From Muricea muricata (Eukaryota > Cnidaria > Anthozoa > Malacalcyonacea > Plexauridae): a DNA stretch of 64,000 bases. The notes beneath the pieces were generated by a model. That model saw nothing but the letters and a program-made list of their open reading frames with translations. It searched no databases and was not told where the DNA came from. Positions within the stretch are counted from its first letter, which is position 1, and every line of letters begins with the position of its first letter. This document shows positions 1-30,292 of this stretch, in pieces. The translations under genes and the position numbers were made by a program. The stretch covers positions 28,966,421 to 29,030,420 of the forward strand of contig OY979716.1 in the NCBI GenBank assembly GCA_963855995.1, given 5' to 3'.

Positions 1-3
1 TAG

Positions 4-3000
4 CTCCATCAAGCCAAGAGGGAGTTTGGTGATACACCCGCGACATTGCTAGCTACTGAGACTGGTGAAGCATCAAATGTAGAGACTGCTGTAGTATCAA
101 CTGTTGAAGAACCAAATGTTGAGACTGGTCAAGCATCCGCTGTTGAAGGATCAGATGTTGAGACTGGTGAAGTGTCAACTGCTGACGCTCGTGAGTTATC
201 TGTGGAGGCTGTCTCAGTAAAGGCTATTGAAATCACCGAATGTAGACCACAAGAAGCAGAAGTAAGTATACTTAGTATTATCAATTCTTTTGACCAGCCT
301 CTGAGCAATAAAAAGCCCTATATTTTGAGTGAAATATAGGTACATGATTGATTATTAATGCACATTGAATTTTAGGCGGGCACTCACAAAAACATGGAGG
401 ATGCTTGGTCCCAGACAATATCTACCAAATGTGAAAATTGTACAAGGTTGTCTGCAATGTTTAAAAAGATTAAAAGGAGGATGCTGTTTTACAGGTCGCA
501 AATAAACAATGGTATGTATAGTTTGAATAAATGAATTCAGTTGATTGAAAAATAATATAATGGTTGCAGTGATGTTTGATACATCTGTATTGCTGATGCT
601 TTTGTAATTCCATTAGATGGTGAAAATTCAGAGAGTGATAGTGAAAATTTGGAGAGCGATAGTGACAATGACATGGATATGGTCAGCTTAGAAACAGACT
701 TTCCTGGATATTGCCCTGAAAGTGATGATGGTGCTGATAGCGATAGTGATGACACTCACTCTTCAACTTTGGAACCATCCTCACCGACAGAAGAAGAACC
801 AACAATGGAATGGACAAGTATAAGTGATACAGAAACAGAGGAAGAAAGTGAAGTTGAAGATCAAGGAAGAAGGTATGTTATTTTTATGAGTATCATTAAA
901 AGCTGAATAGGCCATTTAAGTGCAGGTCAAGTCATGTTCGGCTGAATATGGCGCATCAACAGTTAATTCTTGTGAGTGCGATGCATTTTCTGTTGCTTGT
1001 GGCAAATACCAAAGTTATGGCAACAAAACATAAGATATAAAAAAGATTTATACACTGTAACATGTAGAGTATGTTACAGTGTATAAATCTATTTTTCAGA
1101 GTATATGTTGATGATCAAAATCTGAGAACACAACCAAAGTTTGTTGTTTTTCTCCCACAACTGTTGGAATTGTTTGATGTTTGTCCCACTTGTAAACTGC
1201 CTGGTGTATTGGTAGAAATCAAAGGATTTTCTACGATGGTGCAAGTTGAAACAACATGCAACAATGAAAACTGCATTCAACGTGATAGAGTATGGAAAAG
1301 TCAACCTACAATGCCTGGTACATACATTCCAGCTGGAAACTTACTCCTGTCCCTTGCCATATTGTCTGGTGGTGGATGTGCAAGCAAAGTCATCAGAATT
1401 TTTCAGCACATGGGACTGGGCTGCATATCTTTGTCTACATTCTTTCGTCATCAATGTGTAAGTTATTCCTAAAATTTGCCATACAGCATAATGTATTAGG
1501 TAGCTCTATATATAGTAGTTAGGAAATACAGTAACCATACAATACACTAGCAGAGCGGTCTAGCTTTGTTGTGATTTTGTAAATTGCACAAATCATTTTG
1601 TTTAGACAAAATTGTTGCCAGCCATTCACATCCATTGGAAGAACTATAAATCTTTATTGCAATCAAAGTTAAAAGAAGTCAAAGACCTTGTTGTAGCTGG
1701 AGATGGGCGCCATGACAGTATGGGCCACAGCGCCAAATACTGTGCCTATACTCTTTTTAGCTGCAATGATTCTTATAATCTAATTGTGGACTTCAGTTTA
1801 GTGCAGGTATATTTGCTTATTAATTAATGTAAAGTGTAGATGCTGGTTTTATTTTTATGTTATGAAAGGAAGGTGCTACATCGAGACATAGCTAAGTAAG
1901 GTTCTTGTAATACACACTCAACCACAGAATATTTCAAAATCTAAACAATACAAACTGAACTGAAATGTTTCAATCAAAGACCTCAACAAGGTCAAACTTC
2001 CTTACAAAGGACCTCTGCCTGAAATGTTTCAATTTTTTTTTATTGTTCCAGTAATGAAATATCCTATAGTTTTGTATGCTGCAAATTAATGATATAATAC
2101 ACTTGTTGTAGGATTTATCCTATGCATTTTATTTATTAGAGAAATGAAGCTGGGAGCAGTCCTGCAATGGAATATGTAGGATTTACCAGATGTATGGATA
2201 ATGCTTTCAAGAATGGTTTAGATATTACAACATTTGTTTCCGATCGACACGCAACTATAGCAAAGCACATGAGGGAAAAACTGGACAATGTTACCCACTA
2301 CTTTGACTTATGGCATTTGACTAAGAGTATGTAGGTTACAGTAACTCATTGACTGTGTAGAAGAAACTAATCATACTAACATGTATATTGATAACTGTCA
2401 AAGTATATTTGGAATAAATTTGTGTAAATTTTCATCCTAGTGCGTTTTTACTCTTATATTGTCTCATAAACTTTTTATTCTGACTGTAGGAGTTTCCAAA
2501 GTTCTGAGCAAAATTGCCAAAGAAAAAGATTGTGAGGAACTTCTGCCATGGGTCAAACCTTGTGTAAACCACTTATACTGGAGTGCAACATCGACAGTTA
2601 ATGGAAATGGACAAGTTATATGGGCCAAATTTGAGTCATTTTTTGAGCATATTGCAAACATACACTCAAACTTGCCAAATCCAGTGTTCAACAAGTGTGC
2701 TCATAAAGAAGATATACAAGAAAGGACTGGCTCAGTAAAGGTACCAGTATTTTCTTAATATTTTAATGGAGAATACTAAGTTCAATCATCATAAAAGTGT
2801 TATAAAATGTTTGATAGATAACCATCTAAATTGCATGGTGCTCTTTTTTTGTGTTGGTGGAATGTGCTCATCGATCCTCAACATATGGAAACAAATATGT
2901 ATGGTACAAAAACTTATTTGATTGATGTTTTCCTGTTTTAGATTCTGCTGTTTATGAAAAGCTCCTGATGCCCTCCAGAAAAAAAAGATGAAAAAGGGAA

Positions 3001-3946
3001 TAATGCAGGCATCACCATTATCTCAGACCAGCTGTTTGGAGGGGTTCCATTCACTTTTAAATCATTTTTCACCTAAAATGGTTGCCTACTCATTCCAGGG
3101 AATGTATTGCAGGTATGATATGCAATTCTGTATTTATGTAAGTATTTGCCAGCAATTTTTGAAGTGCAATGGTAAACAGTACTGGCTCCTGTTCTAGGCA
3201 CATCTTGGCTATATGCCATTTTAACATCAACCTTCGAAGAGACGAGCGAAAAACGGAACTGGGAAAAACACAAATCAAAGTGGTGTATCCAAAATTTAAG
3301 AATGATGAAGCCACTGTAAAAAGTGTCAGAGTTGCACCAATGTTTGGTATGATTGTATTACAATCAATTACAATTACCAGTTATTTTTGTATACAATCAG
3401 CATTTGGAAATGTATATCTCTCTTTTAGATTATGTTGAAGAAATTTATCAACAAATGATAAATGCCAGTAAACAAGAGCTGGAAAATGCATGCACAGAAC
3501 TGGTAAAAATGGCCCCTCTCCTATGAACACAATGTTAATGAAGGAATCAAAAGAAAAGGCTGTACAAAAGATGAGCCAGCGAAGCAAAATGGTTGTAGTC
3601 AATGTTCCACCAACTGCAGGTACATGTTATGGGGCAATACAAACCTGATATGCTTATATGCCAGATTAGCTTTGTGTATGTTTGCTCATAAAATAGACAA
3701 TATAGTACATAATTTATTATACAACAGGTTACACAGTTGGTATTTTTAGGTTGAAACTTCAAAAAATTAATTACAAGTTTTCCTAAAACATCAAGTTTAA
3801 CAATTTTATTATAATTACTTTTAGCACCTTCGGTGCCTGAACCACAGCCAACACCAAAGGAAAGAGCAAAACCATGCTGCAGAACGTGTGGCCAACCCAT
3901 GAAGGGTCATAAGAAGATTCAAAATTGCCCACGAAACCAAAAATAA
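4..3946 (+). pseudogene. Kolobok-like DDE transposase, 11 exons, two frameshifts
   Basis: Exons by GT..AG sites: 4-261, 376-511, 617-872, 1100-1457, 1606-1806, 2140-2326, 2490-2740, 2942-3112, 3198-3346, 3429-3619, 3825-3946. The N-terminal part in the window is acidic and repetitive (VETGE-like repeats, then a Ser/Asp/Glu-rich exon); any THAP domain would be to the left. The catalytic core shows DGRHDS (first Asp), VSDRHATI (second Asp), the conserved YFDLWHLTKS, a CEELLPWVKPCVNHLYW block, and CLEGFHSLL, where the Glu is the likely third catalytic residue. The C-terminus is a Cys/His knuckle, CCRTCGQPMKGHKK. Two apparent frameshifts occur: one at an A8 run (2979-2986), one near 3520. Kolobok is inferred from the DDE pattern, from THAP association in paralogous copies, and from the TTAA TSD at 18.8 kb. 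The gene faces the ballast gene at 4283-5901. Confidence 0.7.
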
Positions 3947-4282
3947 AATTTGAAAAAGATATGTGTATCTTCTCAACTACTGTGTTCACTGACTTTAGGT
4001 AACTACAATTGAAATTTTAATCTGCACCTCCCATGTTGAGGAACCCAGGAAGTGCCACTACCCCCAGAACTTTTCTGTTATTTAACTATTTTACATTTCC
4101 CCTGTGAAATTTTCCCGTTTTGGAATCCCCTGAGGATTTTTATCATTTGTTAACATCCCTCTCTTGGTTATTGATGAAATTATTTTAGTAGTGCAGATTA
4201 AAATTGGAACAGCCCAATAGACATGCAGTATGTCAGTACATTTGTTCTACTAGTGAGACAACTGCGTGAGAAAAACAGTATA
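3947..4282. other. Spacer between the convergent genes
   Basis: No coding signal was seen between the transposase stop and the ballast-gene stop. A T-rich 3' flank with possible polyadenylation signals for both genes is expected here. Confidence 0.5.
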
Positions 4283-5901
4283 TTAAGCCACTGATTGGGC
4301 TGATTCTTGATGGTCATCATCGTCATACCCTGTAAATAGTTTTCCTTCAAATTTTGTACGTTTGGCATTATAGGCACATGCTGGTAAAGGAATTTGTCTT
4401 TTCCCTATGTGCCCATAGAAAAGTTGGATATATTCTCGGTATGAAATACTTCTGAGATAACTAGAAAATAAAATAAAAATTGTATGATAAGATTGAAATA
4501 CTATCCATCTTTCAGTTGTCAAAGTTGCAATTCACCAGCCATGTCAAATGGTGTAAAGAGGAAATTGAGAGGAATATAATAAACAGAGAACTTTGAAACA
4601 AATGATAGCAATATTAAATCTTAAATCTATTACAGCAACATGTAGATCATTTGTTTCGAAGTTAATTTTGAGGTTATTTTCACAAAAGACTTTAATAAAG
4701 AAGGATGAATTAATTTTATTAATATCTTCATGGTTTAATGCATTATTTGCTATACCTATTTTCATCTCCATGCACTTCATACTTCTTCTTGTCCATCTTT
4801 CTGTAGTTCGGTCCAGCTAGGCGCAATGACCAAGTAGCCAAACATACCTCAGTAAAGCCTGGGTGCAAAGTTATGCAAGTTGGTACGGTAGAAACCTCTC
4901 GTTTGACCAGGTCACTGTTCAAGGATTCAACACAGTCATCAATCTCTCTGCAACACCGACACTCTCTTTCGTTTTGCAATTTTTCAATCTTACAATTTCC
5001 ACATTGACACCTACAGTAATTTAATACACAGAAACTCTTGTAAGATTCCATGCAATTTACACAAACAATGCAAAATAATATCAAGTACAGTAACTATAAC
5101 CAGTTTTGTTATTATTTACATTTCTTCGCAGGCCAGTCAAATTTAGCCTGCATAAATGGTATATATTTATTCATGGTTTGAGAATTTCCGCCAGAAAATA
5201 TTTCTGACCTCACAGGGGTTCCTGGAGGATAGAATCAGGAAAAACTGAAAAAATTATGAATTCATTATAGCACTGCTGTGCATTTTGTTACATGGTTTAT
5301 AATATCAAACAGTGTAACCTATAACACACGGCCTCCAACACTGATTTGGTTAAAGGTTAATTCGTCTGATTAGTTCGTCCGGCATTTATGCTATACGTAT
5401 TTAAACGTGAGACGACTAAGTTCGTCCAGACGAATTATCCCCCTAGTATAAACACAGCTAATGTGTGGCAATACAACAATTATAAAAAGAACATCCTTGT
5501 GCGTGAAACTGACTTTTCGACGCATTATAAAGCATGTGAGTTAAAATGAAAAGCTTCTACCTGGGAAACAAAATGACAGAGTAGCAAGGAGTTGATCCTT
5601 CTGATCAAAATACTAAAAATAATCACTGTACTCACCAGGTTTGCAAAGCAATATCTCCGCGCAATCGAGACCGAAGATTCTCCAACCTTTCTTCTTCAAA
5701 ACGTCTCTGTTCATAATAATTTGTAATCCAATCATCATCGGCAATAGGTTCCCCTTCGTAAGGTTTACAGCCCCACAATTTTTCGTCTTCGACCGGATTT
5801 GATCCGACAGCTTCGTCTTCAACCTCCATTATATAACCCGGAATAAAATTTGTTTCTGAATCATTCTGACTGCTAGCCGGGTCAGAAAAGCTCGAAGACA
5901 T
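4283..5901 (-). CDS. P2X7 C-terminal 'ballast' zinc-domain protein, intact, 3 exons
   Basis: The exons 5901-5636, 5010-4756 and 4460-4283 join to 699 bp, an uninterrupted 232-residue protein. Exon 1 encodes a Ser/acidic N-terminus (MSSSFSDPASSQ). Exon 2 has the cysteine cluster TWCQCGNC, then ECRCCREI, HPGF and VCL. Exon 3 has SISYREYIQLFYGHIG and IPLPACAYNAKR, ending in an acidic tail. This is the Zn-coordinating, cysteine-rich intracellular domain known from vertebrate P2X7 receptors, here without any transmembrane segment. The first intron splits the Trp codon (TG|G TGT), exactly as in the copy at 19079-19832. It faces the transposase at 4-3946. Function is unknown; nucleic-acid or protein binding within the transposon cycle is speculation. 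It is among the best-preserved cellular-type genes in the window. Confidence 0.8.
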
Positions 5902-6107
5902 TTTGCCGTTATAAGTTAAATAAGAATGAACAAAAAAAAAGTTTTCACACAAAAAAATTCAATGCTATCTAGCCCAATCCCTATATCTTATTAGTTGTTT
6001 TACTTTGTGTAGAATCTGCGTGTTCTCAATATGTCGTCACTTCCGGTACCAAAGCCAAACTCTCCCTAGTCCATTTACCCTAAGGGCAAAAAGGAAAATC
6101 GCCAACT

Positions 6108-6111
6108 TTAA
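6108..6111. other. Candidate TTAA target-site copy at right end of element 1
   Basis: A TTAA follows the sequence gccaact at about 205 bp upstream of the ballast-gene ATG. It is a candidate TSD by analogy with 18805-18808 and 28321-28324. The partner copy is off the window. Confidence 0.35.
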
Positions 6112-6502
6112 GCCCCGAAAAGTCTATGAAGATGAAATTTTCGACTTATAAAATATATTGCAAATCGTCATTAAATAACCTAAATAATCGAAATATGCAA
6201 ATTCCCTGACCTTGATATAGGCACTTTAAGATGTTTACACATAGTGACTTGTCTTGTATTCTGGCATATGAAAATTTAACTTCAATAGCAGCCCTACTAT
6301 TAAATAAAAACCATGTGGCAATTTAGTTGAATTTAGTTTGATGTGATTATATGCAACAGAATACGAATCACGCCCAACAAATAGTTGGGTGCAAATGTAC
6401 TTCAACAGTGATATCATGATATAGGTAAAATTTTGGCTGATCACAAGTGCTGCATCTGTGTAACGAAAAAGACTGCACAACATGGGAGTGGATATGAGCC
6501 AT

Positions 6503-7800
6503 TGCAAAAATGTGTGACGGCAAATGGCGCAAAAACATTACAACAAGTGGAAAACGATGACCAGTATCCTTCGTTATGAGCAGAAGTTGCTGGTGTCAAT
6601 CGGCAAACCATAATAGCAAGAAAATATTACTATGATAAATCATGTTACAAAAAAATTGCTAAGAAACAAACACCAAAGAAGACTGCAGTCATAGATTACA
6701 CAGACGCAGATCATGTTTTCTGAGAAGTTACCAAGCATATCACAGAAAAAATAAAGATGGATGGAAGTCGTACAGGTGAGTGATATTTCAAAGATGTATT
6801 CGGAGAGGCAGATCAACTTCTGGTGATGAAGATAACCTTGTTTTAATGACGGCTCAGAAAATGAAGGAGAAGATTCAAAATTATTTCAGAGAGAAAGTAC
6901 AATTTAACTATAAGATTTTGAATCTTATTTTCTGTTTTACCTATTAACTTCTCTGACATGTAAAATTAGTTCATCTTGGCAAACGTTTTTCCATCTTATT
7001 TGCTGCCAGAAGGCTTATTTTATAATATGTATATATACCTTGTTCTTTTAGTTGGCCACCATCGGTAAAGGAATTTTTATTGAATGAAACACCCATATCC
7101 GGTTTGACAACTCATTAATTGGAAGGAATTCTTGTCAAGAAAACAGCAAAGTCAGCCAAAGTTTTGCACTTAGTTTTTCCAATTGGGCAAGATCTTATAT
7201 ACCACACTAACATACCACATTTTCATTTTCAAATAAAAGGAAGGCTGGCTTGAAACAAGTCATTAGTTGGGTGAATAAGTTTGGACATGGAATCTCTTAT
7301 AATGATGTTCTTCTTATTGAAACACACTTAGCGATGGAGCACACTAGGCGATGGAGCATGCCAATCAAAGGAACTCGGTATTCAACATCACACGTCACTG
7401 CTCTCTCCTCTTCAATCTGAACTGAAAGCGGAGAAGCAAGTATTAACAGAAACCAACGTTGTTCTAAGCATGGCTATCTACGCCAAAGCTGTCGAAATTA
7501 TCATGAATCCAAGGTATGTCAACCTTAAGAAGTTCATAGTCTTGTGCCTTGGAGCATTCTATACCATGTGCATTTTTATTGCTGTTATTGAAAAATAATT
7601 TGGCAGTGCTGGCCTTTGAGATATAATTGTGGAATCAATTCTACTTGAAGAGAGCTCTGTTGATCAGATGTTCAAGGAAACACTACAATAACACCACAAG
7701 AGTTTTGAAATGTTTGTATGATGCAATGAAGAGGCATATATGCTTGGAAGCTATGAACAGTCTGTTCACAATAGCCAGTTAGAGATAAATTATAAAGACT
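6503..7800 (+). pseudogene. Decayed multi-exon gene of a cnidarian repeat-like family (unnamed)
   Basis: Three coding-like stretches run on the plus strand. About 6511-6775 contains ARKYYYDKSCYKK followed by a Lys-rich block. About 7050-7340 contains WPPSVKEFLLNETP, VFPIGQDLIYH and KFGHGISYNDVLLIETHLA. About 7440-7800 contains AIYAKAVEII, FIVLCLGAFYTMCIF and VESILLEESSVDQMF. Each part is broken by several in-frame stops. The order and motifs match a large, uncharacterised multicopy protein family I recall from coral and anemone genomes. I do not know a domain name and give no function. It is clearly dead. Confidence 0.45.
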
Positions 7801-9640
7801 TTATCGAATCAGTAGGGCTTCAAAAGCCTTTTCCCACTCCATCTAGCTCTTTTCCCACTCTTTTTCCAAAGCTCTTTTCCCACTCCAAGAGTTGCTGGAA
7901 ACCTTAATGATCACCAGGATGTAATTAACCATATCCACACACATATGAAAGCTCTTTTTTGGCTAGTTCCCTAGGTCCAACAGGAAGTGTTTGGTCATCA
8001 TTTTTGCTGGATTTTGCCTGATCGGTAAAGCTCAGTGACTGGAAACTGCGTCTTCAAAATCTGACAAACTTATGCATTTCCCCCATTTTTACTTTAAGGG
8101 ATATTTCTGTGCAGATACATACGTTTCAATTTCAAGACCTTAGTAACTTTTAGTGGCTTAGACCATAGACAATCTAAGGAATGATACGCTTTACTTTGGA
8201 ACCATGTAACTTCCATTTAAATTCATTTCAGGACTTCGTATTTACATCTTTTAAACAAGAACAGAAATGTGAATGCAACTATGGACTTTTAAAACTTTTC
8301 AGAGAGATAAACAAGGGGGAAAATCACCATTTAATGTTTCTGTGAACCTTTTTCAACAACAACAATGGCAACATTTCTTTTGATTGTCTATGCTTAGACA
8401 CTTGGTTATTTTATACTTCGGCACAGTAAAAACAGAATTGAAAGTCAAAATATACTTTTGAAAGATGTAAAAATATTTTTTCTTTTATTCCAAATTTGAT
8501 GGTCGAATTGGGAAAAGCTGAAAGTAAGAAAAAGTATGCACTGGTTTTGTTTTTGGGAAGATTCTGTTATTGTGAGAGAGGCCTTTAGCCCTTAAAATAA
8601 AAATGGGGGAAGTGCATAAGTCTAAGATTTTCTTGCATTTAAAGCTTAAAAACAAAACAATACCCAATGGACATGAAAATAGAATAATATTCATGAAAAT
8701 ATTCACTCCCCCGGTATGGTTGCTCACATGGAATTTTCGTGAGAATTGCGTGTAACTTTCAAATTATTTTGAAGCTCAAACTTTCAACTTTGACACTGGA
8801 TTTTAAGTGGGTGGATTTTTATATTGAAATTTGATCAACTTCAAAACCAGAAATTAAATAGTATAAAATACTATTGGATTACATAAAATAAATACACATG
8901 AAGACAAAGGAGCCACATTTATCGGATTCAAGAAGCAGCAAGACTTCATAATGGCAGCAATTTTGCCTAATATTCAACAATACAAAATCAGAGATAAAGT
9001 AGACAGCCAGTCTCAGAACAAATCGAAACTAGGCTGAATTGTTCTTTAGTTATCTGTGATTATGGAAAAGTACAAGAATAGTATGATACTTTGGCTACTC
9101 AGAGATAAAAAGGAAACAAGATGGAAAATATGGCTGAAATTGTTTTTTTGGCGGGGGAGGGGAGTGAAATACGATAATAATTTCGTGTTCTCAGTACGTG
9201 AAATTAAATTTTAATCCAAGCCCTAAATCTAATAAAAAAGATGACAATTAAAATGCTGGTTAGGATTAGGGTTTAGGTTAGAGCTTGGATTAAGATTTAT
9301 ATGGGAACACGGAATTACTACTTGAAATACAATGCCTTAAATATCACAAAATAATCATTAATCCTTTAGAAATCTGCAATAATTGGATTCAATTGAACAT
9401 GGTTTTTCATGTTATATTTTTTTCAAAATATGAAATATTAATTTTTTCTAGCAATTTTAGTGATTTATGCATAATTAGCTGCTTAGCTGTCATGTTGAGT
9501 GGTGATTTCCTTGGAAAATATTATAGTTGGGCAATGTTTTGCTTCTGATAACCACCCCTGTAAGCAACCCTTCTTAACAGTGTAGGCACTTCAGAGAGGC
9601 TGTTGCGTGGATTGGTCTGAAGTTAGAGCTATGTAGTTAG
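7801..9640. other. Non-coding stretch
   Basis: I see no credible gene. There is a local duplication of a ttttcccactc motif at 7828-7885 and a degenerate telomere-like ggttagg/agggtttagg segment near 9258-9285 of the kind often found inside MITEs. The ORF on the minus strand at 8485-8727 has no recognisable feature. Confidence 0.5.
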
Positions 9641-9663
9641 AGCTTTTTTTTCAAAAAAAAATT

Positions 9664-10071
9664 GGCATGCATTAACATATGAAGCTGGAAAACTGCTTAA
9701 AAAGTGCCTGAGCAAATACATCTGCGAGACATGCACTCAGACATTTACAACAGAGAATGTTAACGACAACAGTCAATTACTGTGCGTCTTTTAGACCTTT
9801 GAAAGAACTATAGCATCAGGAGGTCTGATACACCCTGAAGGTGTGTTTTTACGTCATTTGGCAGAGATGGAAAAAAATTATCAGAGAACTCAAGAGTTGC
9901 ACACAAAGGCCTCAAAATAGCTGAATATATATGTTCACAAATGACCAAGTTGCCAGCAGGCCTTTCTAAGTGCCAAAAGTTTCCCTGGCATGAACTTAAA
10001 TCAATTATTTGTTAAAATGGAATTGCATTATGGCTTGAAATTCAGCAACCAGGAGCTGAGTTAAAGGAAGA
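9664..10071 (+). pseudogene. Transposase C-terminal remnant, possibly P-element-like
   Basis: A conceptual translation with three in-frame stops reads LTYEAGKLLKKCLSKYICET, then a CETC pair, GGLIHPEGVFLRHLAEMEK, and near the end LFVKMELHYGLKFSNQELS before a stop. The 'xxxGKLLKKCLSKY..C..C' start and the 'LFVKMxLHYxLKF' end resemble the C-terminal region of P-like/THAP9-type transposases. The resemblance is from memory and weak, and other DDE families are possible. Confidence 0.3.
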
Positions 10072-10606
10072 AAAAAAATAGGAAATACATTAAGGTTTAA
10101 CATTTATGACTTGACATGATTTGAATTTAAATATGTCTGTACACAAAGAGAAAATTATTTAAATAGTCATTTCATTTCTATGGCTGATTGTATAAAAATC
10201 ATGTAGACTGTACCAATGATAATTTTTTGGTTATATATGATAATCACAGAATGGCAATAATCATGTATTTAATGTACCAAATCGTAAATATTCACCCTTA
10301 AATAAATTAGGTACATGTATATTCATAATGTATGCTAGAGGTGAGCTGATCATCAGCAAAACACCGGGAAAATTGATTAATTAGCTTGTTTTTTCACAAT
10401 CGGCCATGTCATTCATGTCGTTCACCATCGGAATCATTGTGAATAGTCAGCGGTGTTAGCTAAAAATATTGAAATTCCAAATTTTTGGTGTGGAAACACT
10501 GATTTTATTACCGCTCTTTTTGACCGTGTTCTCGGCTTCTCGCAATTTGCAATTTGTATTTTTTCGGCTTTAATTATGATATGATATGATGTATCTTCTG
10601 AAGTTT

Positions 10607-10716
10607 CAACGTTCGTGGCTCTTTTCCGTGTTGCATCGAAATACCTGAGTGCTCCAAGTTCTATCTTATATTCCGAGCCTGTGTTTAGTGAGCAGGGCAA
10701 TATCTACACCGAGAAA
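10607..10716 (+). pseudogene. hAT C-terminal dimerisation (hATC) fragment
   Basis: The reading frame from about 10612 encodes ALFRVASKYLSAPSSILYSE, then PVFSEQGNIYTEKRS. This matches the hATC signature (…YLSAPxSSxxSERxFSxxGxIxxxKRS…), with Pro replacing the usual Arg after SE. Only this block survives and nothing upstream is recognisable, so it is an hAT fossil distinct from the minus-strand copy at 11.7-14.1 kb. Confidence 0.6.
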
Positions 10717-10803
10717 AGAAGTAAATATTGGTACTGGAAATCGGTATCGGCAATTGGCTTTTTTTTGCCCATTGGCTCACTTTTAATGTATGCAAGACAA
10801 TAT

Positions 10804-11215
10804 TAAGTAACACCTCAATTTTTACTTTCAAAGTACTGACTGAAAATTTTACTTATTAAATGTAAAAGTATTGCTTCAAAATTTTAGTTAATGTACCAGA
10901 AAAGTTTTGGAAAAATTTACTTTTTGGAAAAAGTGAAAGTACAACTTAAATAGAATTTAACAGAGCATTTATTTGGGTGGCATAGTAAACTGGAGGTAAC
11001 AGCCCAGAGCCATAACCTGGCAGAGTCAAATAACTTTAAACAAGGTTTTTTACTTTGCCAAAGTACAACAAAAGTAATGAAGTAGAAAAAAATATTAAAC
11101 AAAAATCGTACTTCGCTACAAGTAACAAGTAATTCATAATACAATTACTTCATACAAGTAAATACTGATTTTTTTTACTTAAGTAAAGTAACTAAGTAAA
11201 TTTACTTGCAGTTGT
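10804..11215. repeat. AAGTA/TACTT-rich repeat (MITE-like)
   Basis: The segment is dominated by alternating aagtaa, tactt and acttaagt words (for example aagtaacacc near 10806 and acttaagtaaagtaac near 11180), giving many small inverted pairs. It resembles palindromic non-autonomous hAT-type repeats common in invertebrates. No clean terminal repeat or TSD could be fixed. Confidence 0.4.
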
Positions 11216-13365: not shown

Positions 13366-13367
13366 CA

Positions 13368-13439
<72 letters not shown>

Positions 13440-16681: not shown

Positions 16682-17686
16682 TCATTTTTCCACCCTGTAC
16701 CTAGTGCACATGTCTACAATGTTGCCAGCGTTGTACCCACTATAGATGCCATTAGGTGAAGAATAACGAGCACATATTGCTACCACACAACAACTTGGGC
16801 TGACTCTTCTATTGTCCCTTACCAAATGATGATGTTGCGACAACAAGATATACTTTCTATAAGCAACATGTCCCTGATATGTTTTATTGTCCCTGATGTT
16901 GTCTAACACAAGAACATCTTCTCCAAGAATTGCAACGAACATCTTCTCTTCTGCAAGATAAAGCACATTTGGATCAAGGACAAGTTGTGAAAAAAGTGGT
17001 GTTGTTGAATGCAAGGCAGCACTGTACTTGTGCACCACTTGTTCTCTTCCTGTGTTGGCATAACAACAAAGTTTCTGCATTTGCACCAATCTGGGGCTTG
17101 TCCAGCACCTTGTCCTCCCTGTTCTCACCACATCCCCTTCCTCTTTCAGCTGCTCTACCCCTGCTCTAAGCTTCTTCTTCCTTGTACTCCGACTCATTAT
17201 TACGCAAAGTATAGTTGTAACAAAAAAAATTGCTATCGATCAAAACACAACAAGTTATTATCTTTTGTTATCAACTTGAATGGTTCTGTGCAACGTTTAG
17301 AATTTAATAAAACTTGACTAATATTTTACAACCTGACACATTTATATTATATTTACTGGTAGCACAAACACACAATATGTTTACAATATTATAAAAGATT
17401 ATAAATCAGCGCAGGCGTATGCAAACTTTCCTTTCTGAAGTGTGAAACACAACAAATTTTACATACAAAATATGGTTTGACATCAGTTCTGTCCCTTTGT
17501 TTGAAGTTGCTTTGTATAAAGCGTTTGGATAGAGAAAAAATATATAATCTTTTTACTGCGTGAATTAACGCACATGAGACATATGCAGTTATACACAAAA
17601 TCCCAGTGAAAGACAGCTATAACTGTATAAACATAAATGAAGAAACTCACCAATGAAGAGGAATCATCACTATCACTTTCTTGCGC
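16682..17686 (-). pseudogene. P2X7-ballast gene, degenerate copy
   Basis: The C-terminal half (in the 171-codon ORF 17197-16682) reads LDPNVLYLAEEKMFVAIL, GHVAYRKYILLSQHHHLV and DNRRVSPSCCVVAICARY, the ballast-domain C-terminal module. The upstream cysteine cluster, DWCKCRNFVVMPTQEENKW, is in a different frame (about 17110-17030), so at least two compensating frameshifts are present. A possible upstream exon at 17686-17652 encodes AQESDSDDSSSL, like the acidic first exons of this family. The sequence belongs to a different subfamily from the copies at 4.3-5.9 and 19.1-19.8 kb. No partner transposase was seen to its left. Confidence 0.6.
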
Positions 17687-17799
17687 TCTGTAATTATTCA
17701 AGCACGAAAAATTTCCTGCATGGCAAATGCTCAAACAACACTGGTTCAAACTTTTGCAGGGGCAAAAGTTTTTTCCTTTTTCCCAAATGCCATTTCTGC

Positions 17800-18130: not shown

Positions 18131-18337
18131 CGTTTGATTTGACCAAAGGCCCACAAGTCTTTTGCCGTGGGAATTCGACTTTGACAGTCCTATCAAAGTT
18201 GTGTTTGAAGGTGAACCAGCAGTGGATGGAGGTAGGCCAAAAAGAGAGTATTTCACCCTTCTCCTCCAGATGCTTATTTCCTCTTCCTCACCCATTTGAC
18301 TCTTTGAAGGATGTGACTCATCTTACTGCCCATGCAT

Positions 18338-18767: not shown

Positions 18768-19078
18768 CCCATGCATAATATGGATGCAATCCGAGCAGGA
18801 ATGTTTAAAGGGGACCTCCGGTCCCAAATAAAGTTAGGTTTAAATGAAATATCGTACCTTTGTTAGATTGTTCCTAAAATATTTCTGTCCAAATGTTTAT
18901 CGTAAACGAGAAATTGCTCTCCAAAGTTCGCATAATATTCAAATTTGGGCGCCACCTTGTTCTTTTCCGTGCAGACACAAATTTGGTAAGCGCCTCATTT
19001 TGTGATGTCAGTGAGTGAAATCTGCATGGCAAAGCATATTATTTTTATACAGCAATACAGCATTATTTAGCTTTAACG

Positions 19079-19832
19079 ATGAATGTCAATCCTTTAAAAT
19101 CGTCAAGTGACCGTTTGTCGGAATCAAGCACTTCCAGCTCATCAGGTGAGAGTTCAGATGAATTCCATAGAGATCTTTTACAAGCGGACGCAATCCTTGG
19201 CTACCTAGACGAGATTCGTACAGTGCGAGTGACAAGTCTGCTGACATCAACGGGGAAGAACACATGTCGATCAAAGGGGAAACTTCGCTTGTTCGTTTGG
19301 GCAACTTAGACTGGTAAATCATCACTTTGATGGTTGGAATTTTCTTGTTCTTAAATTGTATCAATTTAATTTAAGTCAGTGGCAAAGTCGTTCTTTATTG
19401 ACTGTTGTTAGGTGTTCATGTGAACATTGTCAGGTCATGGATAGAGAACAGGAATGCATCTGTTGTCACAAGATTGAACGAATTGCCAGTAAAAACGACG
19501 AGGTTTTTGAACACATTAAGCCTACCGAGCCATATGATTGCATAACTGATAACCCTGGTTTTCGTACAGTCTGTTTAGATCGATGGGTGTTGCAAGCTGC
19601 TTGGCTTTATTATAAACAAAAGTATGGAAGTCGAGCTTACGAAGGTCCCGAGCACAAAGAACATAGGCATATTGCTTACTGCCAGCTAGTGCGATGGTGT
19701 TGGGGAATTCTAGGGAAAGAAATATGAGTTGTCCTTCCATCTTGTGCAGTTAGTTGTATTCGAGCACACTTTCCACCACCAGGCAATGAAGATGACTTTG
19801 AATTTGTTGGATTTCGTTTTGCTGATGAATAA
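19079..19832 (+). pseudogene. P2X7-ballast gene inside Kolobok 2
   Basis: Exon 1 (19079-19313) begins MNVNPLKSSSDRLSESSTSS and ends, after a frameshift near 19213, with SLVRLGNLDW. Exon 2 (19412-19832) carries CSCEHCQVMDREQECICCHK, DNPGFRTVCLDRWVLQAAWL, AYCQLVRWCWGILGKEI and VVLPSCAVSCIRAHFPPP. The intron falls in the same Trp codon as in the intact copy at 4283-5901. A single TGA (19725-19727) replaces what is usually Arg in GKEIR-VV, consistent with CGA to TGA. One frameshift and one nonsense codon are the only lesions. The start codon lies about 270 bp from the element end, leaving the TIR as the likely promoter. Confidence 0.75.
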
Positions 19833-20409
19833 TTCTATTGTTGTGGAATTACGGTGAGTTATTTGATATGTCTGAAGACTTGTAAATATCTTAAGACCGA
19901 GTTTTAGTGGCAATTGTGTTTTTCATTTTTTTCCAGACAGCCTTGACTTATGTTGTTCAATAACCTCCTGTTTTGAACATACATGTCCAATACTGACAAT
20001 CTGTATCCGATCGACAAATCAACTTTACCGTCGGTACGTTTAGATCCATTGGTCAGTTGTTACTTACGGTCGGACAGTTGTTATTTACGTTTGGACAATA
20101 TTTTGCAGTTGATACAATGTCATGCCATGCAGGAAGTGCGTCATACAGCACTTGCGCTTCTGTCTTGCTGGTTTCCGCCCTAGCTTGAACCTGCTGTGCA
20201 TGTGCATGGTAAGTCAAATGGTCCGATCGATCGATCGGATCCATCGGACAAAGCTGTTTACGGTCGGACAATTTTTTATCGATGGATATATTCTAACCCA
20301 CTGAGAACAAAAATATCGCTTTGTTCGTTAAAAATTGCTGAAGTCGGGAATGTGAACAAGGCTTAGAACATGGAGTTTTCATGCTAAACATTGACAGAAT
20401 AAGTAGAAT

Positions 20410-21465
20410 ACATATATTATATTTTATGACGCACATATGACAGAACAAGTAGAATACAATCAAATGCAGTTCGTAATAAAACCATATGACATGCTGACTA
20501 TTATATTTTACGACGCACATAGTCACAGTCATATTACATTGATTACAATAACAATATGCTTGCTTCGTTGTCAAGAAAATCTATATGACGTGCTGACTCA
20601 TATATTTGGACGCAAATAATCATAATCCTATATTGCTTCGTTCTCAAGATAACTTACAAGACATGCTAACTATTATATTTTACGACGCACATATGACAGA
20701 ATAAGTAGAATACAATCAAATGAAAGTCGTAATAAAACAATATGACTTGCTGACTCTTATATTTTAGAACGCAAATAATGACAATCGTATAACAATAACA
20801 ATATGTTTGCTTCGTTCTCAAGATAACTTACATGACATGCAAACTATATATTTTACGACGCGCATATGACCGAATAAGTAGAATACAATCAAATGCAAGT
20901 CGCAATAAAACCATATGACATGCTGACTCTTATATTTTACGACGCACATAGTCACAATCATATTACAATAACAATATACTTGCTTTGTTCTCAAGAAAAT
21001 CTATAATATGACATGCCGACTATTATATTTTACGACGGAAATGATGACAATCATATAACACTAACAATATGTTTGCTTCGTTCTCAAGATAACTTACATC
21101 ACATGTAACTATTATATTTTACGACGCATATATGACAGAACAAGTAGAATACAATCAAATGCAAGTCGTAATAAAACCACATGACATGCTGACTCTTATA
21201 TTTTACGACGCACATAGTCATAATCATATTACAATAACAATATGCTTGCTTCGTTCTCAAGAAAATCTAGCTATATGACATGCTGACGCTTATATTTTAC
21301 GACGCACATAGTCACAATCATATTACAATAACAATATGCTTGCTTTGTTCTTAAGAAAATCTATATGACATGCCGACTATCATATTTTACGACGCAAATA
21401 ATGACAATCATGTAACACTAAAAATATGTTAGCTTTGTTTTCAAGATAACTTACATGACATGCTA
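20410..21465. repeat. Satellite array A, ~85-95-bp unit, about 11-12 copies
   Basis: The core 'gacatgctgact.ttatattttacgacgcaca' recurs roughly every 80-95 bp (for example near 20487, 20660, 20750, 20923, 21012, 21183, 21268, 21362). A longer module containing acaagtagaatacaatcaaatg appears in a subset (20446, 20703, 20873, 21141), giving a higher-order pattern. It lies between the two convergent Kolobok 2 genes. Confidence 0.85.
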
Positions 21466-21472
21466 AGCATTT

Positions 21473-22310
21473 CACCATCGGTAAAATATTTGTCCGACCG
21501 TAAGATTGCTTGTCCGATGGATCCGATCGATCCATCGGACATTTGGCATGCTTGCAAACCCTCTTGCTTCAAGACTGTGCCCCCTAGCGTTTTGCAATAA
21601 CGTCACATTTCACCATCGGTAAAATATTTTTCCGACCGTAAGATTCCTTGTTCGACGGATCCGATCGATCCATCGGACCATCTGACATTTCCCATTCTTG
21701 TAAACCCTCTTTCTTCAAGACTGTACTGCCTATAGCGCTTTGCAATTACGTCATTTCACCATCCGTAAAATATTTGTCGGACCATAAGAATGCTTGTCCG
21801 ATGGACCGATCGATCCATCTGACATTTGCCATGCTTGCAAACCCTCTTCCTTCAAGACTTTACTACCTAGCCCTTTGGAATTACGTCATTTACTCGTCAT
21901 TAATTCCCTTTATCTTTAACCAGATTCGTCAATTCACCATCGGTAAAATATTTGTCCGATGGATCTGATCGACCCATCGGACCACCTGACATTTGCCATT
22001 CTTCCAAACCCTCTTGCTTCAAGACTGTACTGCCTATAGCGCTTTGCAATTACGTCATTTCACCATCGGTAAAATATTTGTTCGACCGTAAGAATGCTTG
22101 TCCAATGGATCCGATCGATCAATCAGACCATCTGACATTTGCCATGCTTGCAAACCCTCTTGCCTCAAGACTGTACTACCTAGCACTTTGGAATTACGTC
22201 ATTTACTCGTCATTAATTCCATTTATCTTTAACCGGATTCGTCAATTCACCATCGGTAAAATATTTGTCTGACCATAAGATTGCTTATCCGATGGATTCA
22301 TTGGACATTT
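21473..22310. repeat. Satellite array B, ~125-190-bp unit, six copies
   Basis: Copies start with caccatcggtaaaatatttg at about 21473, 21611, 21757, 21934, 22061 and 22248. Each includes the palindromic gatccgatcgatccatcgga. An inverted, degenerate counterpart occurs at about 19985-20290 (tacggtcggaca, ccgatcgatcgatcggatcc). Array A is therefore bracketed by inverted B-type sequence. The two ORFs of 106 codons across the array are repeat artefacts. Confidence 0.85.
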
Positions 22311-24417
22311 GCCATGAGCAGTTGAAAAAAAATCCACACTTAGGAAACGTAGGAAAAGCGCTGTTAAGCTGTTAAGTATAAATAACCATAGCAATAAATG
22401 CGTATGCATATTATAGTTCCCTACTTGACAAATATTTTTCGGACGGTAAACATCTATTACCATCGGCTCGATCGGAACCACCTGTAAGAGAGATTTCTCC
22501 ATAGGACTCTGATTGCCGATATTGGGCATCAATCGTTTTGAACGCTTTGGAGTTGGTGCTATGCATTGAGCTTGTTTAGCTGGATTATATTTTTTAAGCT
22601 TCTTGCCTTTCTTACATTGCAACACACGCTTCATCATTCCTACAACATAGGCAGTGGATTTTGGGCTCTTTATTTCCTTTGCTTTGCACAAACCAGCTTG
22701 AATCGTTTCTCGCCTTTATTGACTCCCTGTTTCAATTCTGCTTGGCTTCTGTTGACGTTAGTATTGTGATCGAGAATAGCCAACTGGGTTCGAGTTATCA
22801 TTCCATTGTAATGAAAATGCTCTCGTTTGGGAACACATTTTGTCATAAGGGAATGGTAAGATTCCAGTTGATCAGTATGATGGAATTCTGTTAGTTTACC
22901 AATATCCTTCAAAAGCTTATTGTTCGTCACAACTTCTTCTAATGCAACATGTGCCGGAGAACCAGCTTCAAGCCATTTTATGGACTTTTGGTCTTTTTGG
23001 CTTATTGAAGGATGTCCACACTTCTTGACATTTTGGAAGTCTTTTGAAGTCTTCCATCGATGTTTACCAGTGATGTGGTATAATAATGACAGCCATTTTC
23101 CCTTAAGATGTCAGCACTTTCGTCACAGGTTGCTGCAGACCACCACAAATGGTTTGATACACTCCGTATCCATGGCAATAACTCTTCACAACCCTTCTTT
23201 TTTGCCTTTTTGGTTAATTTTTTGGTTATCCATTTACTTATGTGCCATACATTATATTGGTGGGTAATTTTAGGATAGTTTGACCTCATTTTAGCAGTTA
23301 TGGTTGTGTGGCAGTCTTGTCAGGCACTGGATTGGAATTTTCTTTTTGATGATTGAATTCAATGTTCCTTTACAACCTTCATACTCATGCATTTGAGGAT
23401 GTTACTTCTGTTACTTGTACAACACTGAATTCAATTATCAAATTAGTTTTTTCATCCTTGAGGGTATAAGTCCAATATTTTGCCGAATGTCTCGGTCTGT
23501 CACATCACCCATCTCTACATACATCCACACTGCCACTTTGCTTCATCTGTTTTAGAACAGCCATGGCCATTAATACAAGTTGCAGCAATAGTTACCATAC
23601 TTCCCTGACTATGTTGTGTTGTTGTATCAATAGGGCTACCACAATTTTGAAACAGCTTAAATAACTTAAATAACTGACTTTCAAATACTATAAATTTTTT
23701 TTCAGTGGAAGGTGTAGTGCCATCAAGAAATTCATCATCTGTTTCAGAGTCATTGTCAGAAGCTGAAGGACAATATGAGGAACAGCTATCACTCAAACAG
23801 CTGTTGTTATCGGATTAAATTGAAAATGCTTCATCCTCAGATTCCAATATTACCAGTTCATGTTGGTTATCACCACATGTGGATAAAATGAACAAAGGCA
23901 ACTTTTGTCTGATTGGTTGATTTTTCACATTATGTAATTGCACTGTTGCTATGGAAATCACAACATGGCTGCAGGTCAAAGCAAAATGAATTGTGTGTGT
24001 TCTTTCGAATTCACTGCAAATATTTTTGGAAATAATACTTTAATAATATCCAGAAGAAAGAGAAAGAAAATCTACTAGTACTGGGATTATTCCGAGTTGA
24101 TTTTATTGCATTATGTCCAGAATCGTGGCGATCAGTCGATCATGCATAATTGTATTTTTCTTCGCCCTGGGTCATGTTGTGCAGTAATGGTTACATTTTC
24201 GCTTTTTGTGCTTTAAAACTACAACCAATGGCTACAAGTCTTTACTTAACATTATATACCATATTTGTCAAGATGTTTCCTTGCTTCAAGACGCTTGACA
24301 GACTTGAGGCGGGAAATTTTGTTCAACTTTTTCGAAGGCTTTTAATATACCTCGTATTTCTGTTGCTCAGTGCTTTAAACTTAAGTTTTTAACAGTCTTT
24401 TTAAGAACTATTTCTGT

Positions 24418-24750
24418 GCAGCAGCATGGTTTAAATTTCCCTGTCGTGTTTGCGGAAAGAAGTCTGCAAATTCGGCCTTTGTAAACCCTGGTTTACATGA
24501 ACAGTGCATTTGCAGGCTCTGTTATGCGAAACAAATAGGTACATGTTTGCAAAATATTGGCGTTCATGTAAAAACACAAACTGAATTGAGTACAATGACT
24601 GAAGGAGGTATGTACACATACAATTTATACATATTTGTATTGGTTGTTTTATGTATTAAAGTCTGATAAAACCTGAAATATTAAAACTCCTATTTGTTAA
24701 CAGAAACTCCAACTGGTCAGAGCCCAAATTCCTACCTCACTGTTTCTGGT
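24418..24750 (+). CDS. Cysteine-rich exon pair, unknown (possible zinc finger)
   Basis: The frame from about 24422 reads AAWFKFPCRVCGKKSANSAF, VNPGLHEQCICRLCYAKQ and NIGVHVKTQTELSTMTEGG, then a gtatgt donor. A second short exon (from about 24704) reads ETPTGQSPNSYLTVSG before a gttagt donor. The CxxC...CxCxxC spacing suggests one or two zinc sites. It may be the 5' part of a gene captured by the nested element; a link to HECT-type genes is possible but only a guess. No stop codon interrupts the frame. Confidence 0.35.
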
Positions 24751-24984
24751 TAGTGGTTTCTTTTGCTTTTAAACTGTACGAAAACAATACTAATAAACAT
24801 AGTACATGTTTTAGGACAAGTGTAAACATGTCCAACTTTGTCCAACTTTGTTCAACCTGGCTTCAAGTGGCTTTGAACTTGATCAATTTAAACCCTACTA
24901 TGATAGTACATGTATGTATATACTGGGTCAAGTTATTATTCAAAAGATGTAGAGCAAATGTGCAGTTACTTTAATTATGCCTAA

Positions 24985-27384
24985 ACCATAATCTATTACT
25001 ACAGTCAGACCAAATGAAATACTATAAGATTATACTTCAACAATATAATATTACCAATCTAGACAGGACCTGTGAGTAGCAGAGGTGATTATAGTCAATG
25101 CTATCGGCATAAACAGTCTCGCTCGAAATGTCAAAGATCGATCACATCTCAAATCTATTATCAACAGTTGACAATACAGTGCTGGTATATGAAATGTGTT
25201 TTAGTAATATTTTAGTACTTGCCCATGCTTTTTTTTCTCTTCAAAAAGCTGAGTTTTCTTTTCCGAAAACTGTGCATTTTTAGCAAGGGAATTAGTCCAA
25301 ATACCCTTCAAATAAGGGTGGACCAGATCTAGTATATTGTAGGGGTACGTCACTAGCGGTCAGGAGTTGGGGCACACCGAAAATGCAGAAATGAAGGTCA
25401 TTTACTAGGTTATTACTAGGTTAAGTTGGGTAGGTCAAAATAAAATATTTTGGACATTCAGTTCCATGCTAAGAATACACAGTTGTTTAGCCAAATAAAC
25501 AATTGCTCCAAAGAACTATGCAAATCTACTGCTTTATAAGATAGCTTAGTTTAGTATTAGTTAATGTGAGGAAAGTAATACTACCATCATGTACCATAGC
25601 TTAATTTATAGTCTGGGCAGGTCAATTTCTGTTGTAATGCACTCAATTCACATGCCTTTTCAGCAATTGTTTATTTACTTTTGTTAATCACATTAATCTG
25701 TAAAAATAATGTTTAGTATCAAATTTATAGGCTAGTTAGAAATGGCATGGTTACAAAATTACTTGCTTGAATCATGCATGCTTGAACACTGCACTAAATT
25801 CTTAAAAATAGCATAAAAATATGTTTGGGAATTATATTTTTCATGTTTATTTGGAACTATTAGTATAAAAGCAAGCAATTGTAGCTATCTCATTTAAACA
25901 AAAGTGAGGTTTACTTAGGTTGAGAACCGCCGATGGCCCCGACTGGGTCCGGTACGAGGCTCTTTTAAACCTTTTTAAACATCATCTGTACTTAATTAGG
26001 GTTATAAAATTAAAAAAACCATAAAATGTTTGTTGTCTCCTTGGGTACTGAAAAAATAGGGAAAAAATTGAACAAATGTATACAATACGTATGTATAATA
26101 TACAAATGTTACAGTAAAACTATCCTTTATTGAATGAAAAAATTCGAAAATATTTATTCGAAACTCGCTGTCGTCAACTATATTTCGAATATACAATAAA
26201 TTAAGCAAAAAATGTCCAAGTTTAATGCATGGCCACACATGCAGTGCAAGGTCGGCAAGAAAACTAAATATATTTTTGTAAACATTGTAACACAAACAAC
26301 ATGGTCAGGAAGCCATTTCCCGTAACTCGGTCTAGTTTGTTCACAGGCAAGAGAACTCGCTCGAGTTGTAATCATGCATTTAATTTGTGAGTTTTATCTG
26401 CCAAGAGGATATATTCGAATGAATTGTTGTTTAAAAAGTAAAGGGCTTTCATCTCAAATCTCTCGAGTAAATAACATTTCGGTTATAGCAAACTTGTTGC
26501 CAATTTTCCATTGTCAAAATTATATATTTAGCAGGGCGACGAACCGAGAAAGCTAGGCCGCGATTCCAACAAAGTTTTACTGCTGAAAGCCGACCCGCAC
26601 GATTCGAAACAGCCTTGTGTTTGAGGTGCAATGTCGATGGAATAATGAAGCACATTTTCTAAAGTAAAAAAGCTCCATTTCAATGTGAGTTCAGGGAAAT
26701 CCTGTAACTAGAGCTCATTACATTTGTGTAGCTGTTTTAGCGCGCTTCATGCAAAATGAATCCACTAATGCTAAAATGTAAGTTGTAAATAAAAGCCGGT
26801 TACTTCGACTACAAATATTTACAAGTCACGGTAGTGAGTAGTTAAAATGCCTTACCTTTGTAGGTTCCATATCTGAAAAATGACAGGAGCTCAACCATAT
26901 GCATACCTCTTGCTTAAAAATGTTTAGAAAACCGCACTGGTTAAATAAGTCCTTGACTTTCCCATATTACTTGCTCTGGTGTCCCGACTATGGGTTCACT
27001 CAACTGCTCATATTGTACAAATACTTTATGCTGAGTAAGCGGACTTAATAATTCATTTTTGGAGAAAAAAACTACAAAAGGATAAGACTTTCATCAGAAG
27101 ATCTTCACTTGCTTCTATTATGCTTTCATGGGCCCAACCAAATCGCGATCAAAAGGTAGAAAAGCTTTATCCAAAGTCTCAAGATTTATGAATATGACAC
27201 AGCAACAATCACTTCGTACAGTACTGTTGATTTCATAACAAACGCAAGACAATTTTGTCTGTTATACCTGTTTACGTTCACCAGATACGCAAACGCACAC
27301 ACTTTCGAGCCTTTGAACCGGAAGTATTTTTATCAAAAGAAAACTTCGAAAAAACTGACCAATCAGACGAAAGTTGCCTTTGTT
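24985..27384. other. Rest of nested element, no gene recognised
   Basis: Small ORFs at 26002-26655 on the minus strand show no recognisable motifs. Confidence 0.35.
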
Positions 27385-30292
27385 GATAAAATGATGGACT
27401 TGTGATTAAGGTCTGGTGTGGATGGTGTTGGGCATGATTTTGCAACTTCAAAGTGGTCGTCAGTTAAGAATTGAGTTTTGGGGTCCAATGAGTAACAGTG
27501 ATCTTATAAATGAAGAATTTTGTTGATGTCATCAGCATTTCTAGTTCTTGGTATTCTTTTTGTCAGAACATCTATAGTTTGTGCCCAATTGTTGTAAACA
27601 TTTTAACCTGTCCTGAGGTAGTCTGAACCTCCTTGTGCACCTTGAGTTCAGTGTTTTGTACAGTGACTTGTTCAAAATCATTAGAAATATCTATGCTTTC
27701 ATTTTCATGGGAGCAGCCAGGTGAATTACCAGAAACAAATTCTTCCTTTTCTGTTTCTACAGCCTTGACAATGTTAACCGTACAAATTGATAAAATCAAT
27801 TAAATCACAATGCTTAAATGTATTTTATATGTCAAAATATGTTTGTTATAAATGTCAGTGCTGTTCACATAATAGTATCTATCAAATACCTATCTACCTA
27901 TATCCAAGTCAATTGTTGACAATTTTGGAAGCCAAAATTCTTGGGATTAGTAAATAAATATTATTTGACATTTTGACCTTAATATATAGTACAAATCAAA
28001 ACCAACCTTCCTTTTTTGATTTTTTATTTGCCTCGTACTCGATGGTCTGGCTTTTTTACCATTGTCCCTTGAACCAAACTTAAAAATTGTCGGTATTGCT
28101 GACGATGTTAGCGTCTTGACCTTTTTAAAACCAGGTATAATTTAAACACCGGGTTGAAAACAATCTTCTGTGAAGTGTGCACTACAGACAAACGTATGCG
28201 AACTTTGGAGAGCAATTTCTCCTTTACTATAAACATTTAGATGGAAATATTTTAGGAACAATCTAATAAAGGTACGATATTTAATTTAAACCTAACTTCA
28301 TTTGAGACCGGAGTTCCCCTTTAAGGTGGCTGGAATATTGATCACAGCAAGTGTTATCAGCGGTGGTCCTGGGTTTCCATTTCTTTCTCCTGTGCTGTTC
28401 AAGTACTTCACTTCTGCAGCATGTGAAATAGATAATGTGTTAGCTGAGATAACTAAAGATGTGGTTGACTGGAATACTCTAAAAGGTATAGAAAACGTTA
28501 CCATGTGTAGAACATGTCAATGCATTGCACGGTTAAAATGATCATTTTGAACCATAGAAAGGGAAAAATAAGACGATTTGGAACAAAAAAGAAACAAAAT
28601 CTGAAGCTCATACCAAGATTTCAAAAATTGCACAAATTACTGTAGAGGGAATTTGTTTGCACAAAAGGTTGCACTATATATGCTGTAAGAAAATGTTGAT
28701 GATTTTAAGAGAAAAAATACATAGGTCATTCAGATTGTTTACTTGTTCACATTGCTTGCTGAAATCTTAAACAATTCATTGGCAGAATTATACATTTGTT
28801 AATTTTTGTTTTATTTACAGATTGACGCTGCCACTGACAGTGACATTTAACATGTCTCTTCTGCTGTACAAAATTTGCTTGTTGATTATAGGTACACCAA
28901 AGTACTTCAGATCAACAACAAACTGGAAGCAATAACAGCACAGTGTATGCACTCAGTTATCCTTTCAAGAAAAGGTGCAATTGACCAATTTGCCATTGGC
29001 TCAATGCCACTCTTGGAACTAGCAAAAGAAACCCCAGTATTTATGAAACAAATCTTTGTGGCTGGTGCATCCTCTCTCAGCGTTAATGTGGAGACATTTA
29101 AGGAATTATTAGTCTTTGAGGACGTTGATGCCAATATAAAAGATATGTTTTTAAGATATATTGAAACGGAAGGTTAGCTTCTTAAAATGCTTATTTCCAA
29201 ATGGGAAATGCAGTATACTCCAAAAAATCCTAAATAGAATTAGTTGGAGTCACAATTTGCTTAGCATTGACTGCATTGACCATTATTCTGATAAAAAGGT
29301 TGAAGTGTATATGAAGTGAAATTTTGTATTCCATAGTTAAAAAGATCTTTTAAAATGGTTTAACAAGTTGTTTTGCAGTTTTTCATTTCCTTTCAAACTT
29401 AGACATTTTAGTTTGCAAACAATGTGATGTCATGTTGCATAATGAGCTCTCGTTTAACCTTGCTATACTTGGTTAGTCAAGCAAAAGACCATGCTAAGAT
29501 GAACATGTCTGTAACTATTAATGCTTCATGCCCATGTAACTCAGTTTGGGTTGTTTAACTCCCTGGCAGCTGCTAACATGAAAGTTTGAAAAATATGTAC
29601 ATGACTTTGTATTGTTACAATGAAAAGTTCAAAGAATCTAAAATATTTCAAGTTAAAAAGAAAAAAAACCCTGCAAATTAAGGAACTTGTTATACAGTTT
29701 TAAAAGATCCTTCCAACTAAAGAACAAAAAAATTCATGTGAAATGCATTTCAACAAAGTTGAATTGATAGTATTTGATGCTACTGGAAACGTACAGTATG
29801 AGGTATTTTCTCTATTAAAATAAAATATTTTATGAAGCAAAATTTTTAGATTAGGAATCTTTTGTGTGGCTTTTACAGATTACAAATGCATCATCTTTTG
29901 CTCGTTTATTTAGCTGAGAAACTCCAAGACTTGTTAATGTTTTGCACAGGAACGAACCAACTCCCTCCTCTCGGCTTTCATGAGCCTGCTAAAATAACTG
30001 TTATGCAGTTGGATGAATTACGTGGAAAACTTCCTAATTCTAACACATGTCCTCAAGAGTTGGAACTTCCCAGTGTCCACAATGGATAAGAAGCATTTAA
30101 AGATTCTATGAACTGTGCGTTGTTGATTGATGAATCACGAATTCAAGTTATTCAACTGTCAGCAAATATCTAACTTTAGTTAGCTGTTTGCACTATAATA
30201 TTTTGTATTTTTGCAAAAAGTTTTGGGAACTTTAACAATTTATTGTTGCAAAAATTAAATAAAAAGCATTTATCAGGTCAACAAATATGGAG

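Follow-up and report, generated by a model that had tools for sequence, protein, structure and literature searches.

A two-gene Kolobok transposon of the anthozoan Muricea muricata, with the P2X7-ballast protein KolX as a probable partner of its THAP-DDE transposase

We analyzed a 64,000-nucleotide stretch of Muricea muricata DNA (assembly GCA_963855995.1, contig OY979716.1, positions 28,966,421 to 29,030,420 of the forward strand), hereafter the window. It contains two transposable elements, A and B, each with a THAP-DDE transposase gene and a gene for a P2X7-ballast protein. We interpret both as two-gene, KolX-bearing (Kol0-type) Kolobok transposons, in which the ballast protein, KolX, is probably a conserved partner needed for spread. 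In both, the transposase and KolX genes point at one another and are enclosed by inverted repeats with TTAA on the outside. KolX would be a small zinc-ligand protein with the fold of the P2X7 cytoplasmic ballast, which most likely works in the transposition complex, as a subunit or cofactor, beside the THAP transposase.

An earlier note on this DNA had presented the link between ballast domain and transposon as not being standard annotation. This central idea is not new, as Kojima & Bao 2022 (PMC9587614) name KolX, recognize its ballast fold and see in it the likely source of the P2X7 tail. In their account, Kol0 Kolobok encodes KolX, which has a ballast fold, is similar to P2X7 476–595 and carries seven conserved cysteines; P2X7 is proposed to have arisen by fusion with KolX, so that the P2X7 tail would derive from such a gene. 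Beyond that paper, the publications listed by our literature search included none on KolX and none on its census, selection or co-divergence. What we add is a genome census, the fixed convergent gene order, a selection signal, co-divergence of the two genes, and the conservation of three of five P2X7 contacts to guanosine diphosphate (GDP), including H547.

Element A is bounded by 130-nt inverted arms (18805–18934 and 28195–28324) that are 92% complementary. As these arms include TTAA at both outer ends, the terminal inverted repeat (TIR) measures 126 nt. The description of 18809–28320 in the earlier note, as a TIR/TTAA element with a ballast gene on the plus strand and a THAP-DDE gene on the minus strand, was confirmed. 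The outer TIR ends read AGGGG. The KolX gene (19079–19829, plus strand) faces the transposase gene (22533–28201, minus strand), and both are broken; KolX has a frame change and an in-frame stop, and the element lacks the stretch holding the start of the THAP exon. The open part of KolX matched Pfam family PF20478 (E 2e-7). Element A is 9512 bp long, compared with 4003 bp for a relative elsewhere in the genome, locus L013, because it contains a tandem-repeat block and a nested element (Table 1). In L013, both KolX exons, a 682-amino-acid transposase frame and the THAP exon are all open.

Using the left end of element A, we obtained 43 matches (147 candidates, 40 scored) and examined 20 regions. 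Both family-A ends were present in 12 of the 20, with TTAA on both sides in seven and on one side only in five. Four copies (L009–L012) are 1.67-kb derivatives; they were considered as ballast-only elements, which was rejected, as they are internal deletions that have lost both the DDE core and the C-terminal part of KolX.

Element B differs from element A and is a second, separate Kolobok element. It is complete at 7077 bp, starts 851 bp ahead of the window and ends at position 6225, with TTAA on both sides and inverted ends that are 83% identical over 227 columns (DNA before the window included). Its transposase is encoded on the plus strand, with the THAP exon upstream of the window, and its KolX gene (5901–4286, minus strand) consists of three open exons. 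The earlier note had rightly recognized the same tail-to-tail pair with an intact ballast copy at 1–6.1 kb. The KolX protein of element B is strongly diverged: its PF20478 match (E 0.055) lies under the curated Pfam cut-off. It was detected by a KolX profile built here (independent E-values, iE, 3.6e-16 and 2.4e-11), the building set of which may itself contain element B.

Several features place both elements in Kolobok. Each has a 4-bp TTAA target-site duplication and starts with AG, that is, with the 5′-RR termini that separate Kolobok from piggyBac (PMC9587614). By eye, the L013 transposase frame carries GDGRCDS, TTDRH, YDVWH and LESYH in that order, motifs of the kind used for classification in PMC9587614, and inspection of the unaligned frame revealed cysteines between DxxH and E. 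The THAP domain (PF05485) was significant in L013 (3.2e-16) and in element B (4.9e-11), and L013 KolX, corresponding to the second protein of the Kol0 lineage, matched PF20478 at E 3.6e-17. In the L013 transposase frame, the sole Pfam match was to MULE and was sub-threshold. An identity as piggyBac was rejected, as the ends read AG rather than 5′-YY and no piggyBac domain was found in this frame in Pfam. The published Kol0 elements (Kolobok-1_XT and relatives) have TTAA sites, 5′-RR ends, a DxxH DDE transposase and KolX with ballast fold and conserved cysteines in common with ours; they differ in that the families described here are new, and orientation, census, selection and co-divergence are absent from the available text of PMC9587614.

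KolX corresponds to the P2X7 ballast domain (PF20478; PDB 6u9w, 9e3p) without the channel part. A predicted structure of the KolX homologue P0005 showed a fold match to the P2X7 ballast. Searching PDB sequences with L013 KolX returned five matches, comprising weak matches to P2X7 (E 0.003–0.01) and an unrelated chimera at 0.006, and the same search with element B KolX returned no P2X7 match. No relative was found when viral contigs were scanned with the KolX alignment. A long open frame surrounding one ballast match in the genome arises from unread sequence and was rejected as a sign of a fusion gene.

The pairing of the two genes was found throughout the genome. We scanned it with PF20478 (743 candidates, 150 scored, all above the Pfam cut-off) and with a transposase-tail query (224 candidates, 150 scored). 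At 115 of the 150 scored ballast loci, a transposase tail was located within 10 kb downstream on the opposite strand, giving a convergent pair; 105 of these pairs were within 2 kb, and the median gap was 676 bp. By comparison, 1000 shuffles (true sizes for contigs C1–C3, an assumed 15 Mb for the remaining contigs) gave a mean convergent count of 0.54 and a maximum of 5. Pairing was observed at 29 of the 30 best-scoring ballast loci, against 86 of the other 120, and is thus weaker among copies with lower scores, which are presumably older or more diverged.

Local tests were performed on the 30 best-scoring loci. With a first profile, a facing tail was detected downstream within 1.5 kb at 23 loci and upstream at none; a second profile, which catches tails cut by the locus edge, detected a facing tail at 25, and locus L037 keeps other transposase exons. 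The ballast-side boundary was examined in ten families with at least two copies. It fell at, or within two bases of, TTAA followed by AG in four of them; in another four the similarity continued to the edge of the compared DNA, and in one it ended in simple or unread sequence. In other assemblies, 120 KolX and 120 transposase homologues yielded three exact contig-size matches, compared with four in all from 12 shifted comparisons, a weak hint of pairing.

We also compared the divergence of the two genes, as the earlier note had proposed. From 20 of the 30 best loci and L013 (21 pairs), 11 family representatives were used; pairs with short or cut tails were left out, as were element A, whose tail is too short, and element B, which has no tail match. 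KolX distances correlated with transposase-tail distances, both across all 11 families (Mantel r 0.81, p 0.0003) and within the ten families of the main clade alone (r 0.40, p 0.005). Between families, synonymous sites were near saturation while replacement differences were low. The median ratio of replacement to synonymous differences (pN/pS), from 55 pairs for each gene, was 0.23 in KolX and 0.43 in the transposase tail; these exact ratios are rough, as the synonymous distance (dS) was finite in only four KolX and nine tail pairs, and the comparison concerns the tail rather than the catalytic core. Purifying selection acts on KolX, and the constraint on it exceeds that on the transposase tail. 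As KolX co-diverges with the transposase and is the more tightly constrained of the two, it would be part of the element's own apparatus rather than cargo. We infer a partner of the transposase because a passenger is not expected to be the more constrained gene.

An alternative is that KolX stands outside the reaction and shields the element from the host, as a regulatory or anti-silencing protein. In some plant Mutator-like elements, the second gene has a function of this kind. Such a role would explain why KolX is strongly constrained and why it forms a gene of its own, convergent to the transposase, and the zebrafish relative nanor has been suggested to act in transcription regulation (PMC7016195). 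However, PF20478 was the sole Pfam family matched by KolX up to E 1, with no DNA-binding or chromatin domain among the matches. We consider host protection unlikely, if the most serious competitor.

KolX might instead be a passenger, captured a single time from the host between the ends and lacking any role in transposition, which is close to the view of it as cargo taken in the earlier note. Many single copies, including element A, have stops or frame changes in KolX, and the 1.67-kb derivatives have spread without its C-terminus. These derivatives say nothing special about KolX, because the DDE core is missing too. Moreover, 11 diverged families have all retained KolX in convergent orientation, and it co-diverges with the transposase, under constraint stronger than that on the transposase tail. 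The note was correct in assigning the ballast gene to the transposon and in taking the facing order as general, but the designation as cargo fits poorly with this co-divergence and constraint, and we regard it as improbable. Accidental neighbourhood, in which unrelated nested or adjacent repeats were multiplied by duplication of one locus, might find support in L014, L015 and L018 (3971, 3971 and 3945 bp, with identical flanking four bases), which may be duplicates of one another, but it is refuted by the co-divergence and by a pairing that far exceeds the shuffles in number and occurs on many contigs, across diverged families and in elements with their own inverted ends and TTAA, and we give it practically no credence.

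Several observations weigh against KolX as a conserved partner in two-gene elements. No transposase-tail match was found within 10 kb of 33 of the 150 scored ballast loci, and two more showed another arrangement (4.3 and 5.9 kb, adjoining a further ballast locus). In one of the ten families (L032/L053), similarity ended at the ballast domain without TTAA; the pair L039/L056 likewise stopped there, although the other pair of its family ended at TTAA. Most copies are broken, and both KolX exons were open in only 2 of 13 family-A elements in a pattern test that included the window copy. The P0005 model had a mean predicted local distance difference test (pLDDT) score of 65.6 (core ~90), and none of its Foldseek matches reached E 0.001 (best 1.7e-3). 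Finally, the suggested role in transposition is read from sequence.

We then considered the residues of KolX that might bind zinc and nucleotide, counting them in the best 120 of 360 homologues of L013 KolX and the best 120 of 257 homologues of main-clade KolX. Main-clade KolX has eight cysteine columns, with cysteine in all but 0–5 of 112–118 non-gap rows. Of the five GDP contacts of rat P2X7, R546 and R578 alone persist beyond deuterostomes according to Rump et al. 2020 (PMC7016195), who also report that vertebrate P2X7 generally keeps R546, H547 and R578 and that R574 and K583 are mammal-only contacts. Among the L013 KolX homologues, R546 was present in 114, H547 in 117 and R578 in 114; the corresponding counts for main-clade KolX were 112, 116 and 101 (8 gapped). 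Equivalents of all three were kept in 29–30 of the 30 best-scoring ballast loci. Almost all KolX examined have V in place of R574 and P or S in place of K583. In element B KolX, a reading by eye indicated that R is kept and H is not. Named sources among the homologues listed were cnidarians, a crinoid and hemichordates, the best being anthozoans, including the octocorals Paramuricea and Dendronephthya. Since named cnidarian alignment rows show H directly, H547, reported as lost outside deuterostomes, is conserved in predicted cnidarian KolX.

The P element and THAP9 have the combination of THAP and a DDE-type (RNase H) transposase in common with our elements. For placing the transposon end, the P element depends on GTP, which sits in a largely helical domain; the P element differs in having this GTP site inside its transposase and an 8-bp target duplication, and no KolX is described for it in the available text (PMC7776569). 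The use of GTP by the P element, together with the contacts kept in KolX, makes a shared guanine-nucleotide role possible, and KolX may possibly have such a role in transposition. A more specific version would make KolX the guanine-nucleotide subunit of a machine that is P-element-like but split: as a separate helical zinc protein, it would lend the Kolobok THAP-DDE transposase the GTP/GDP site that the P element holds internally, and the GDP site of P2X7 would be the fossil of a transposition cofactor. We regard this version as quite doubtful.

Rump et al. 2020 (PMC7016195) also described a THAP-ballast protein in Ixodes and, for ballast genes, an 'ancestral synteny' with two markers. Both could reflect the transposon's own transposase. 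Many cnidarian 'P2X purinoceptor 7-like' genes may likewise be transposon genes, and their neighbouring markers may be the second gene of the transposon. The published transposon origin of the P2X7 tail rests on similarity; more than 100 ordered pairs, drawn from no fewer than 11 diverged families, now provide a testable system, and raise the question of what the ballast fold does for a transposase.

Table 1. Features of elements A and B and of a third ballast relic in the window
Feature	Position	Strand	Evidence or remark
Element B, THAP-DDE transposase	1–3946	+	Matched blocks 1606–1809, 2146–2325, 2492–2737; end placed by eye
Element B, KolX exon 3	4286–4459	−	KolX profile 4349–4456, iE 2.4e-11
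Element B, KolX exon 2	4752–5033	−	KolX profile 4758–5030, iE 3.6e-16
Element B, KolX exon 1	5635–5901	−	
Element B, right TIR	6018–6225	.	Partner starts 851 bp before window
Element B, right TTAA target-site duplication	6226–6229	.	
Third ballast (KolX) relic, main-clade type	16751–17094	−	Frame-shifted; KolX profile iE 4.4e-20, second piece 8.5e-6
Element A, left TTAA target-site duplication	18805–18808	.	
Element A, left TIR (ballast side)	18809–18934	+	92% over 126 nt
Element A, KolX/ballast exon 1	19079–19314	+	Frame change near 19204–19219; tblastn with L013 protein
Element A, KolX/ballast exon 2	19413–19829	+	In-frame stop 19725–19727; PF20478 E 2e-7 for open part
Element A, tandem-repeat block between gene ends	19977–22535	.	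Absent from L013 (4003 bp)
Element A, transposase DDE part	22533–23892	−	Interrupted frames
Nested 3494-bp element within element A transposase	23891–27384	.	9-bp repeat GATAAAATG both sides
Element A, transposase part following THAP	27381–27799	−	
Element A, THAP remnant	28004–28201	−	Counterpart of L013 3575–3877 missing
Element A, right TIR	28195–28320	−	
Element A, right TTAA target-site duplication	28321–28324	.	

The third ballast relic had been overlooked in the earlier note; a profile search found no transposase-tail match beside it. Between the gene ends of element A, two complex tandem-repeat arrays occupy 20310–22300, with periods of ~90/173/266 and 146/304. The nested element has 38-nt inverted arms (87%) inside its 9-bp target repeats, and a short cysteine-rich frame at ~24440–24530 on the plus strand. 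In another family-A copy (L020), an insert whose 1330-amino-acid open frame looks retroelement-like by eye interrupts the transposase. Loci L026–L028 carry a related KolX type in short palindromic derivatives, in which a truncated KolX precedes its own inverted copy; L026 and L027 showed both ends and L028 one. Elsewhere in the window, a weak THAP-like match (28% over 85 amino acids, E 2.5e-4) was found at 60893–61138 on the plus strand. Long open frames of 198, 804 and 271 amino acids at 40980–46281 (plus strand) look like a BEL/Pao-type retroelement.

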